A DNA stretch of 13,056 nucleotides, from contig JAUXGS010000006.1 of NCBI GenBank assembly GCA_030621945.1, positions 1-13,056 on the forward strand, written 5' to 3'. Origin of the DNA: Methanosarcinales archaeon (GTDB taxonomy: Archaea; Halobacteriota; Syntropharchaeia; Alkanophagales; Methanospirareceae). Positions 1,960-3,884 of the stretch are shown one piece after another (position 1 is the first letter of the stretch; each line of letters starts with the position of its first letter). Below the pieces are notes generated by a model. That model was given only the letters and a program-made list of their open reading frames with translations, was not told where the DNA came from and searched no databases. The position numbers and the translations under genes are program-made.

Positions 1960-2130
1960 TCTAACACGAAAACGTTGGTGACAACAGTACTCAGTGCAGT
2001 GTATGTGTTGCAAAACGGTTAAATTGATGGGGAGAGGTAAAAGGAAGGGGGAAAGGGGAATCGTGGAAAGGAGAGGTGCATCCATAGAGAGGTATATACG
2101 AAGTAAACTTCAGATATACCGAAGTTAGGC
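1960..2130 (+). repeat. attC-like site A (degenerate): CTAACAC start to GTTAGGC end
   Basis: TCTAACAC at 1960-1967 lies 30 bases after the rubrerythrin stop. GTTAGGC at 2124-2130 lies before the next gene and is followed by CGAAATGGCG. The two ends resemble the R'' (RYYYAAC) and R' (GTTRRRY) boxes of integron attC sites and match the ends of the better site at 2621-2705. At about 170 bases it is longer than usual attC sites and the inner arms pair poorly. CTAAC can also pair with the nearer GTTGG at 1974-1978. It may be a decayed site, two merged sites, or chance. Confidence 0.35.
2091..2120 (+). promoter_or_regulatory. 30-base interrupted hairpin upstream of the PD-(D/E)XK gene
   Basis: Outer arms GGTATAT (2091-2097) and ATATACC (2114-2120) and inner arms GAAGT (2100-2104) and ACTTC (2107-2111) are both perfect inverted repeats around an AA loop. 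A competing pairing, AACTTC (2106-2111) with GAAGTT (2121-2126), would exclude the inner stem. GGTATATA could also act as a TATA box for the gene starting at 2157. The function is inferred from position only. Confidence 0.35.
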
Positions 2131-2156
2131 GAAATGGCGATTCGGAAAGGTGAAAT

Positions 2157-2609
2157 ATGACGGAGAAGATACCAAGCGTATTAACGGGAGTGTCAGGAGA
2201 ATATTTCGTCGCCGCAGAATTGTCGCGACGAGGATATATTGCTTCAATAACATTGCGAAATACTAAAGGCATTGATGTTCTTGCCTCGAACCAAGACACG
2301 TCGAAGTCGGTAGGCATTCAAGTAAAGACTAATCATGGGAAAAGAAAAGCGTGGATATTGAACCAGAAAGCGGAAAACTATTTTGAAGAGAACCTCTTCT
2401 ATATCTTTGTGAATCTGAAAGGAACAAATGAGAGGCCTGACTTTTATATCGTTCCAAGCAAAGTGGTAGCAGAGTATATCGAAAAGAGTCACAGAGAGTG
2501 GTTAAACACACCGGGCAAAAAAGGAAAACCGCACAAAGACAATCCTATGAGGATGTTCAAGGATGAAGAAGACCAATATTTAGAAAAGTGGGGGTCATTA
2601 GGATTATAG
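2157..2609 (+). CDS. Stand-alone PD-(D/E)XK nuclease-like protein
   Basis: The 150 residues fit the core of the PD-(D/E)XK nuclease fold: a helix with GEYFVAAELSRRGY (E15), then GID (D40), then the strand VGIQVKTN (Q55, K57), giving an E-D-QxK set as in small archaeal resolvase-like and mobile-element nucleases. The C-terminal half has FYIFVNL, FYIVPSKVVAEYI and a Lys/His-rich TPGKKGKPHKDNP segment. Closely similar proteins occur singly across many bacteria, often within mobile or cassette regions, and have frequently been mislabelled aspartate ammonia-lyase; there is no lyase signature here. ATG at 2157 is preceded by GGTGA (2149-2153). The gene is flanked by attC-like sequences at 1960-2130 and 2621-2705, as expected of a cassette cargo gene. 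Nuclease activity is inferred from the fold and its substrate is unknown. Confidence 0.75.
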   Translation: MTEKIPSVLTGVSGEYFVAAELSRRGYIASITLRNTKGIDVLASNQDTSKSVGIQVKTNHGKRKAWILNQKAENYFEENLFYIFVNLKGTNERPDFYIVPSKVVAEYIEKSHREWLNTPGKKGKPHKDNPMRMFKDEEDQYLEKWGSLGL

Positions 2610-2620
2610 ATGCTACTTCC

Positions 2621-2705
2621 GCTAACACGGGCTATACGACTACGCTTCGCTACGCTTCTCCCAAATCCAGCAAAGCGGGACTTCAGATACGCTCGGAACG
2701 TTAGC
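2621..2705 (+). repeat. attC-like site B (best preserved)
   Basis: GCTAAC (2621-2626) pairs perfectly with GTTAGC (2700-2705) as outer R boxes. Inside, CGGGC (2628-2632) pairs with GCTCG (2691-2695, one G-T). TAT (2633-2635) then pairs with ATA (2687-2689), leaving C2690 unpaired. A paired outer box, an unpaired spacer, a second box and an extrahelical base are the layout of a folded integron attC site, and the 85-base length is in the usual range. It starts 11 bases after the PD-(D/E)XK stop and ends before the ribosome binding site of the next gene. Confidence 0.55.
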
Positions 2706-2744
2706 CGAAATGCCGCAAAATGTTCTTCATCGAGGTGGTAGATA

Positions 2745-3269
2745 ATGGATGAACGAAAAGGCTATAAGCGGAAAGTATATGAACATCGAAAAGATCTTGC
2801 TGGAGAACACTCGCTAAGTGACATAGGACAGATAATACTACTTATTCTTTTTCTTACAGGCTTGCTAATTGATAAGCGGATCCTACATTTCTCACTGTTC
2901 TTGGCACAACTTTTTCCGTTTTATCTTAGGATACTTTTCTCACTACCTTTTCTTATTCTTGCGTTTCTTTTAGCCCGATCCGGTCTCAAAGCTGTTTTTG
3001 GTGAACAAAGAGAAGAGTTAGTTCTTATAAAATCAGGTGTATTTTCCATTGTACGCCATCCAATCTATTTGGGTGCCATATTATTGTATTTGGGATTCAT
3101 CATTATTTCTTTATCCATTATTTCATTCTGTATATGGATTGTTATTATTCTGTTTTATTACTTTATTTCTCGATATGAAGAAAAGTTACTAATTGATAAA
3201 CTTGGTTCTCAATATGAAGAATATATGAATGCAGTTCCGATGTTCATTCCGCGAATAAAAAGGAAATGA
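2745..3269 (+). CDS. Isoprenylcysteine carboxyl methyltransferase-like membrane methyltransferase
   Basis: This is an integral membrane protein of 174 residues from the ICMT/phospholipid methyltransferase superfamily. These enzymes move a methyl group from S-adenosylmethionine to membrane-associated substrates. Hydrophobic segments lie near 27-42, 56-78, 107-124 and 125-142. The SAM-binding C-terminal signature is present: SGVFSIVRHPIYLG (97-110, with RHP), RYEEKLL (143-149, the conserved Glu region) and YEEYMNAVPMFIP (157-169). The basic N-terminus probably faces the cytoplasm. ATG at 2745 is supported by GAGGTGG (2732-2738). The gene is visibly more AT-rich than its neighbours and sits between attC-like sites B and C, suggesting horizontal acquisition as a cassette. 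The real substrate cannot be told; archaea lack prenylated CaaX proteins of the eukaryotic type, so a lipid or small-molecule substrate is possible. Confidence 0.82.
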   Translation: MDERKGYKRKVYEHRKDLAGEHSLSDIGQIILLILFLTGLLIDKRILHFSLFLAQLFPFYLRILFSLPFLILAFLLARSGLKAVFGEQREELVLIKSGVFSIVRHPIYLGAILLYLGFIIISLSIISFCIWIVIILFYYFISRYEEKLLIDKLGSQYEEYMNAVPMFIPRIKRK

Positions 3270-3276
3270 CAGTTTA

Positions 3277-3312
3277 TCTAACACAGCATATCGGGCTTCG
3301 TTTCATTCCGTT
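3277..3312 (+). repeat. attC-like site C (left half, right arm missing)
   Basis: TCTAACACAGCATATCGGGC begins eight bases after the ICMT-like stop and repeats the CTAACAC opening of sites A and B (CTAACAC at 3278-3284). The expected right arm (GTTAGA-like) is absent; only CCGTTTAAATCGGGTGGCGG follows. It therefore looks like a truncated end of the cassette array. Confidence 0.3.
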
Positions 3313-3420
3313 TAAATCGGGTGGCGGTCCAAAATACACCAAAATCGTACTTTACTTATCATGCACCTCCGAAGGAAGCTATTTATGTGACACCGTGTAA
3401 TAACAGAGTGCATAGAATCA

Positions 3421-3884
3421 TGCCACTAAAAAGCGAGTTGAAGGAGATTGAATGTCCAAAATGCTGGGTTACAATGAGCCAAGAGGAGGTTGAAGTCTTA
3501 GGCCCGAACATCATTATAGATATCTGCCCCGAGTGTGGAGGGATCTGGTTAGACCACGGGGAATTGAAGAAGCTGTTAAAAGATAGAAAACTATCGGATT
3601 ATCTGACGAAGCATATCGGCACTCAGAGCAAGAGCAAACTGGTATGTGCCAGATGCGGGTGGTTAATGGATATCGAGCCAGCAGAAGATGTAGAGGTAGA
3701 CGTCTGTTTGAAGTGCGGCGGTGTATGGCTTGATTACGGCGAGTTAGAGAAATTGAAGGATATATCGAAGGCAGGGTTTAAGGCTGATGAACTCGCAAAG
3801 GCTGAAGAGCGGTGGGAAGAGCTGGCACAAAAAGAGCGTGAATCGGTGCTTCTCGGGCTCTTCAATCGCTTATCACGAAGATGA
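3421..3884 (+). CDS. Tandem zinc-ribbon protein (zf-TFIIB-like, two copies)
   Basis: The 154 residues contain two tandem copies of the small zf-TFIIB-like zinc ribbon. Copy 1 has C12-x2-C15 ... IDICPECGGIWLDHGEL (C36, C39). Copy 2 has C76-x2-C79 ... VDVCLKCGGVWLDYGELEKL (C96, C99). A charged helical tail (about 120-154) follows. Each ribbon should bind one zinc; the molecular role of these proteins is unknown. The start is uncertain: the frame is open back to a GTG at 3321 with no good ribosome binding site, which would add 33 residues lacking zinc-ribbon features and would abut the attC-like site C. ATG at 3421 places the first ribbon near the N-terminus as in relatives. The gene ends five bases before the convergent phosphopantoate ligase gene, leaving no room for a separate terminator. 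Confidence 0.78.

Follow-up and report, generated by a model that had tools for sequence, protein, structure and literature searches.

The question raised by this locus is whether a row of genes in an archaeal chromosome is an integron cassette array and, if so, to what kind of integron it belongs. The window, i.e. the whole 13,056-bp stretch that was analysed, comes from an assembly of 1.19 Mb in 231 contigs that is 56% complete. Judging by the names of homologues, the organism is very probably a relative of ANME-1 / Methanophagaceae. Contamination by a bacterial contig is unlikely, because the contig holds genes for the S19e ribosomal protein, a PF01984 dsDNA-binding protein and a PF02006 phosphopantothenate synthetase, which we take to be archaeal-type markers. 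An initial annotation, made from the letters alone, had read three consecutive genes with similar palindromic spacers as cassettes of an attC cluster lacking an integrase.

The repeats on which that reading was built are all in place. CTAACAC occurs on the plus strand at 1961, 2622 and 3278, with no other copy in the window, at 31, 12 and 8 bases behind the ORF stops at 1929, 2609 and 3269, and the two near-identical 16-mers lie at 2124 (GTTAGGCGAAATGGCG) and 2700 (GTTAGCCGAAATGCCG). Three copies of CTAACAC compare with 0.81 expected, a count reached in 10 of 200 shuffles; the 16-mer family (up to 3 mismatches) has 2 copies versus 0.36 expected, reached in 12 of 200. By themselves the window repeats are weak and marginally above chance, as ~5-6% of shuffles equal them, and this counts in favor of ordinary genes with coincidental short repeats. 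Comparison with congeners and relatives lifts them above chance, because the repeated 16-mer agrees with a cassette-start consensus, GTTA-[TG]-N-Y-GAAAT, that continues after the R' box behind 106 attC matches in 56 loci. An Rfam search gave no fitting family.

The attC sites of relatives were modeled with a covariance model, R1, built from 14 aligned attCs of other genomes, with the window and its genome absent from the seed; it was run over 67 of the collected loci. It was relied on because our first detector, which required near-complete RYYYAAC/GTTRRRY boxes, missed the window attC and did not have a clean null (5 matches of at least 30 in 20 shuffled windows). Six of the 14 seeds came from a detector without a fixed spacer and the others from one allowing 0-3 and 2-7 nt, and since eight seeds were thus spacer-restricted, R1 leans to its own geometry. 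In the 14-site alignment the L arms covary, with double changes in 9 of 11 pairs; 87.7% of the cells pair, and there are 39 double-change cells versus 13.9 when shuffled and 5-9 when slid. The larger set of 107 matches, in an alignment fitted to the structure, has 338 such cells versus 131. The bottom strands, folded alone, were more stable than shuffles in seven of eight cases (z from -2.35 to -6.75). The exception is the window attC, at z -0.36 no better than its shuffles.

These sites share a lopsided geometry. In the seeds, the R''-L'' spacer is 1 nt in 11 of 14, 0 in two and 3 in one, and the L'-R' spacer is 4-6 nt in all 14. With spacers left free from 0 to 10 nt, the L' side was longer by 3-5 nt in 93 of 98 R1 sites and near-symmetric in three, by a rough measure applied to those 98 of the 106 sites whose AAC and GTT are exact. 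The similar spacers on both arms of canonical attCs are therefore not found here: among 20 candidate canonical sites upstream of three canonical IntIs, the same kind of rough measure gave 14 near-symmetric sites (2 nt or less), six otherwise lopsided and none of the archaeal form. The sites are arrayed on one strand in all 27 loci with at least two attCs (a second-strand call of the palindromic L198 site was dropped from the array and spacer counts). Spacings are 0.4-2.7 kb in 47 of 50 cases, with two of 181 bp and one of 4.4 kb, and the longer ORF is on the attC strand in 45 of 49 intervals under 4 kb (median 244 versus 50 aa). One-gene cassettes in a single orientation with G/TTRRRY boundaries, as in canonical integrons, are thus present, the boundaries being placed by sequence only. 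The conserved R''-L''-L'-R' imperfect palindrome is likewise present in the relatives, and the window retains one degenerate and one half site.

The first of the two cassettes in the window (2125-2700, plus strand) runs from TTAGGCGAAAT..., where the consensus follows R', to the G of the next R' box, and holds a single ORF in the same orientation (2157-2609, from the ORF list) for a 150-aa protein. No Pfam or NCBIfam family was found for this protein. It has 2662 homologues, and 80 bacterial loci were fetched; among the 51 genomes of the archaeal family, two others have distant matches only (38-46%). An attC search around the 80 bacterial loci gave mixed weak matches, with three R1 sites in L105 as the exception. 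Canonical IntI over the cut-off was seen in eight of 14 bacterial genomes with a cassette-1 homologue, chosen partly for attC-like matches, and this gene family may travel in both kinds of integron. The attC of cassette 1 is degenerate (2620-2706, plus strand; R1 31.5 bits, E 8.2e-5 in 75 kb and E 0.00128 for its own genome).

Cassette 2 (2701 to about 3330, plus strand) starts with the consensus as TTAGCCGAAAT and has lost its 3' boundary, so its end is approximate. It carries a 174-aa PEMT/ICMT-like methyltransferase gene (2745-3269; Pfam PF04191/PF04140). Membrane methyltransferases of this type recur as cassettes, at L114:10900-11496 and L187:7488-8264 as well as in the window; in L187 the one in question follows an unusually large archaeal cassette (L187:3600-8395 covers the stretch) with an acetyl-CoA synthetase (663 aa) and, by ORF reading, a broken transporter-like ORF between two attCs. 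Behind the window gene lies a 5' half attC (3273-3330, plus strand) with R'' ATCTAAC and L'' CAGCATATCGGG; L' and R' are missing, the remainder resembles the attC of L116, and an R1 search up to E 10 did not recover it. The zinc-ribbon gene that flanks the array (3321-3884, plus strand) probably starts at ATG 3420 instead of 3321. Its homologue in L116 begins at the ATG matching 3420, so the part of the ORF upstream of this codon would be a remnant of the array.

Most of the initial annotation holds at this level: there is one gene per unit, in one orientation, in cassettes of the integron type on an archaeal chromosome, and the units start at the G/TTRRRY point at 2125 and 2701. The palindromic spacers fared unevenly as attCs. 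The second is one, in degenerate form, the third is a half site without an R' box, and the first was rejected as an attC, since it is conserved directly behind the integrases of relatives and is an attI. The CTAACAC copy at 1961 is accordingly no attC half and probably a coincidence, and those at 2622 and 3278 fall within the degenerate and the half attC. The covariance-model search that the annotation had proposed, run here with R1, found the one 31.5-bit site and left the half site unmatched. It follows that a cluster in the CALIN sense (two or more attCs at distances below 4 kb, without integrase) is not what R1 detects in the window, which has one attC and a half site.

The attI site (2073-2139, plus strand) consists of a dyad, GGTATATAC...GATATACC, at about 2094-2121 and an R box, GTTAGGC, at 2124-2130, with the crossover point presumed to lie between 2124 and 2125. 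In the same place, L116 has a 63-bp stretch 84% identical to it and L114 a 53-bp stretch 75% identical. The homologue directly precedes the first cassette in the congeners G003 and G006, and a clean empty attI was not seen at this locus among the congeners compared. The motif GATATACC..GTTA occurs within 170 bp behind the integrase end in 11 of 21 distinct integrase-bearing loci, five of the 21 having at most 110 bp or nothing past the integrase in which to show it, and others lacking the motif. In L144 the attI element is repeated and its last copy meets GTTAGGC; these repeats recall the accessory repeats of attI1. A 15-base attI core, with one mismatch allowed, gave 226 copies in 45 of the 51 family genomes versus 2 for the reversed pattern. 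Six such places were fetched, three of them on contigs already known to hold attCs, and five have a same-strand attC 0.6-0.9 kb downstream.

The sixth is on contig C215 of the source genome, where no attC was found. This second attI-like site (L262:4330-4375) lies, by ORF reading, downstream of an enolase-like gene and before a transposase-like scrap, and R1 found no attC on the contig.

The same slot was then compared in six congeners (G001-G006), as the initial annotation had suggested. The zinc-ribbon gene and its downstream neighbours (phosphopantothenate synthetase, PDCD5-type, S19e, GatB and Rad50 genes) are kept in all six as far as their contigs reach, with ~2.4 kb extra between two of the neighbours in G003. 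The contents of the slot differ. G002 has the same methyltransferase (92%) in the same place with the same half attC. G006 has a gene for a 267-aa SAM methyltransferase, a clean attC and then a tautomerase gene, and in G003 a different PEMT-family gene (32% over part) precedes a clean attC and, by sequence, the same tautomerase. G005 has neither, and homology ends abruptly at window position 3358. Units are thus present or absent from genome to genome, with other cassettes and clean attCs in two sister genomes. Upstream of the slot the congeners differ as well, with rubrerythrin, dapA-like or Mrp-like genes by ORF reading. Immediately upstream of the attI there are integrase scraps in L116 (E 5.65e-8) and, more weakly, in L114 (E 0.035). 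Coincidence among ordinary genes, to which the poor fold of the window attC might still lend something, is hardly credible given the attI conserved in congeners, the match to an independently built model and the swapped gene content of one slot.

There is no integrase in the window, as had been annotated; scraps of one lie beside the attI in two sister genomes, and it is of a kind that had not been foreseen. As in canonical integrons, the attI adjoins an integrase gene in the relatives, and the window has the attI without it. The collection comprises 21 distinct loci that carry an integrase or remains of it. In 13 of them the sequence continues for 1 kb or more past the integrase, and each of the 13 has an attC on the same strand 0.5-3.6 kb downstream and none on the opposite strand. 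Seven of the 13 had been fetched by attC, one by a flank gene and five by integrase, and the fair linkage count is that of the 12 loci fetched by integrase, where an attC is present in 5 of the 5 with enough sequence. In one further locus the integrase is followed by an attC after 96 bp, and the remaining seven contigs end within 1 kb. Six assemblies (L140, L141, L142, L143, L146 and L150) end within 254 bp behind the integrase; breaks of this kind would not be surprising at arrays with variable or repeated contents.

Five further loci were picked by integrase: attCs lie within 2.1 kb in L271 and L272 and only at ~10 kb in L273, and L274 and L275 offer less than 200 bp to search. L271, from another family, is a 410-kb contig of a 95% complete genome. 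Its integrase frame runs for 362 codons without interruption and is followed first by attI-like dyad repeats, which have no clear GTTA box, and then by attCs. In the family of the source organism, most of the integrases detected are broken or truncated at contig ends. Two loci of a Patescibacteria-type phylum (L251 and L253) have an integrase without the additional domain (58 residues), divergent from arrays of 11 and 9 attCs that all lie on the strand opposite to the integrase; these integrases score under the cut-offs of both NF040815 and TIGR02249. This is the layout of classical integrons, combined with an integrase of a noncanonical kind. The remaining five of the seven Patescibacteria-type loci examined yielded no integrase frame of this sort. 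That integrase and attC are paired alike in two layouts and in two domains argues that they work together.

The gene adjoining the attI encodes a tyrosine recombinase of about 346 aa with Phage_int_SAM_4 and then Phage_integrase domains behind an N-terminal stretch that is weakly HARP-like (Pfam E 0.023, under the cut-off). Of five archaeal integrases scanned, the three longest scored 244-257 bits with the archaeal XerA model NF040815 (cut-off 220) and 226-239 with the IntI model (cut-off 265), and the two shorter ones 207 and 223 versus 168 and 213. NF040815 was the best model and over its cut-off in four of the five, the fifth being cut by a contig end. Positions ~180 to 233 of the IntI profile are unmatched, and there are 25 residues where IntI4 (PDB 2a3v) has 67. 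The distance between the KGxKDR and HxLRHS motifs is 59-63 residues in 111 of 120 homologues (nine were not measurable) and 62 in six archaeal loci, versus 100 in five of five canonical IntIs (six loci, of which L210 gave no ORF). The linked integrase is a XerA-like tyrosine recombinase without the ~40 residues that form the IntI additional domain, a canonical feature absent from the window and from its relatives alike.

The PDB sequence closest to the integrase was 4a8e (1.1e-45), with IntI4 nearly equal (6.8e-45), and IntI4 led the fold search with an AlphaFold model (mean pLDDT 79.7, pTM 0.49) that was used for fold look-up only. The first tree (42 rows, 23 of the 120 homologues) gave three groups only, the sister pair among them not being distinguishable. 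In the second (30 rows, 12 of the 120) the Patescibacteria integrases grouped with IntI (85/78), and a clade of archaeal and Patescibacteria integrases was not rejected (p = 0.30); placement in the trees is limited by long branches and by the absence of archaeal chromosomal XerA. The Xer rows L227, L236 and L238 are in neither tree, and L228, L230 and the archaeal L143 are absent from the second. One candidate, Xer_L214, was found not to be a recombinase.

An alternative is that the locus is a CALIN as known from bacteria, in which cassettes with canonical attCs depend entirely on a canonical IntI in trans for their movement. The window has no integrase, and most archaeal integrons in print are CALINs, according to the accessible part of Ghaly et al. 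2022 (PMC9668308). A search of the genome for IntI, also proposed in the initial annotation, gave no IntI-type match in the 56% complete source assembly, and relatives hold the integrase without the additional domain in its place. Over the canonical cut-off there was no IntI in the 51 family genomes and none in 294 genomes of the phylum. A strong match below it (E 1e-30) was present in 12 of the 294, and R1 sites were found in 11 of these 12 versus 67 of the 282 others, in counts that ignore kinship. Sub-cut-off TIGR02249 matches were rejected as proof of an integron integrase, as at E 0.001 all 14 control genomes match. The attC geometry is unlike that of the candidate canonical sites, R1, which leans to its own geometry, found no site in the canonical bacterial integron loci L219-L224, and a noncanonical integrase adjoins the attI. 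A CALIN of the bacterial kind is therefore improbable here.

The sites are widespread. At E 0.01, R1 found attCs in 49 of the 51 family genomes (632 matches), and at E 1e-4 in 78 of the 294 sampled from the phylum, among them members of several further families and a genome assembled in one contig. The phylum to which the Adlerbacteria genome G307 belongs (inferred to be Patescibacteria) had sites in 34 of 239 genomes, and the order of the Burkholderiales genome G299 in none of 150. All these runs used stricter Infernal filters, and their E-values are rough. Patescibacteria-type genomes (L251, L253, L105 and others) have long arrays of the same attC class. Sites on many contigs of many genomes would also be expected if the hairpins were the ends of a MITE or transposon family of short non-autonomous elements, with the integrase a bystander, and the attI-like site without attC before a transposase-like ORF on C215 (by ORF reading) would suit this. 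Such elements do not account for tandem arrays that keep to one strand and have a same-strand ORF in nearly all intervals, for different genes between similar ends, for arms that vary in sequence and keep their pairing, or for the order integrase, attI, attC; we consider this explanation very unlikely.

The locus in the window is thus very probably a decayed chromosomal integron of an archaeon, with an attI, two cassettes and a lost integrase of the XerA-like family without the additional domain, and the integron reading of the initial annotation was largely right. The integrase gene would once have stood immediately upstream, reading towards the attI, and been lost here with scraps left in two sister species. 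Two single-gene cassettes remain, the attC of one degenerate and that of the other half deleted. Several points count against this reading: the window has no integrase and its 56% complete genome no IntI-type match, the window attC is weak and folds poorly, the congeners differ upstream of the slot and show no clean empty attI there, most integrases of the family are broken or truncated, and the attI-like repeats of L271 have no clear GTTA box. With the integrase gone, one attC degenerate and one halved, the platform is dead or dormant.

In its working form, the attI would mark the place where circular cassettes insert. Most likely, integrase protomers bind the attI and a hairpin attC formed from one strand and cut at G/TT. 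Recombination would join the G/TTRRRY point of the attI with the same point of the folded single-strand attC, whose arms have a short (~1 nt) and a long (4-6 nt) spacer, and the cassette circle would enter at the attI. The comparisons show the attI and attC sites, the orientation of the cassettes, the changing contents of one slot, the integrase adjoining the attI, its missing domain and the covarying base pairs; that this integrase performs the recombination, that it acts on a folded strand and the choice of strand are inferred. The asymmetric spacer would do the job of the extrahelical bases, whose role in canonical attCs is summarized in the accessible part of PMC8946536.

Archaeal integrons, as well as CALINs, in archaeal MAGs are already in print (Ghaly et al. 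2022, PMC9668308). The accessible part of that paper describes attC arrays, cassettes in one orientation and an attI behind intI in archaeal MAGs, as here. Its sites come from HattCI/Infernal and IntegronFinder, its IntIs have the additional domain and its attCs are said to fold like bacterial ones, whereas here the domain is absent and the spacers are asymmetric. In the chromosomal integrons with reverse-oriented integrase that it presents as typical of Spirochaetota, the integrase reads towards the attI and array as in the archaeal loci, but those have IntIs, and the integrase here is XerA-like, with an N-terminal stretch that weakly resembles HARP.

XerA resolves chromosome dimers at dif. 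The archaeal XerAs (NF040815; PDB 4a8e and 5hxy) provide the best model and closest PDB sequence for the integrases described here; this branch, unlike them, is located at an attI next to cassette arrays, and its terminal motif, IKSPLD, is IntI-like. In the open-licence literature we found no title or abstract describing this class, and the accessible parts of PMC7380581 and PMC7923331 do not describe it; an earlier description is possible. The decayed integron of the window belongs to a class that is apparently undescribed.

Taken together, the comparisons suggest a widespread integron type whose integrase lacks a domain described as necessary in bacterial integrons. We think it somewhat probable that this is a large, mostly overlooked class in Halobacteriota-type archaea and Patescibacteria, run by tyrosine recombinases that either never had the domain or have lost it, and with an attC whose asymmetric spacer replaces the extrahelical-base code, that the window is one decayed member, and that the class may predate the gain of the domain. 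The additional domain is stated to be necessary for integron recombination in the accessible part of PMC9668308, citing earlier work. Natural attI sites and attC arrays with a linked domain-less integrase would make that rule testable, and such a system would offer a second solution to recognizing folded DNA sites. Such systems may escape searches designed around canonical sites and integrases. A domain-less class bears on the origins of integrons, and it would reveal cassette exchange among archaea that probably cycle methane, as well as among the reduced Patescibacteria.
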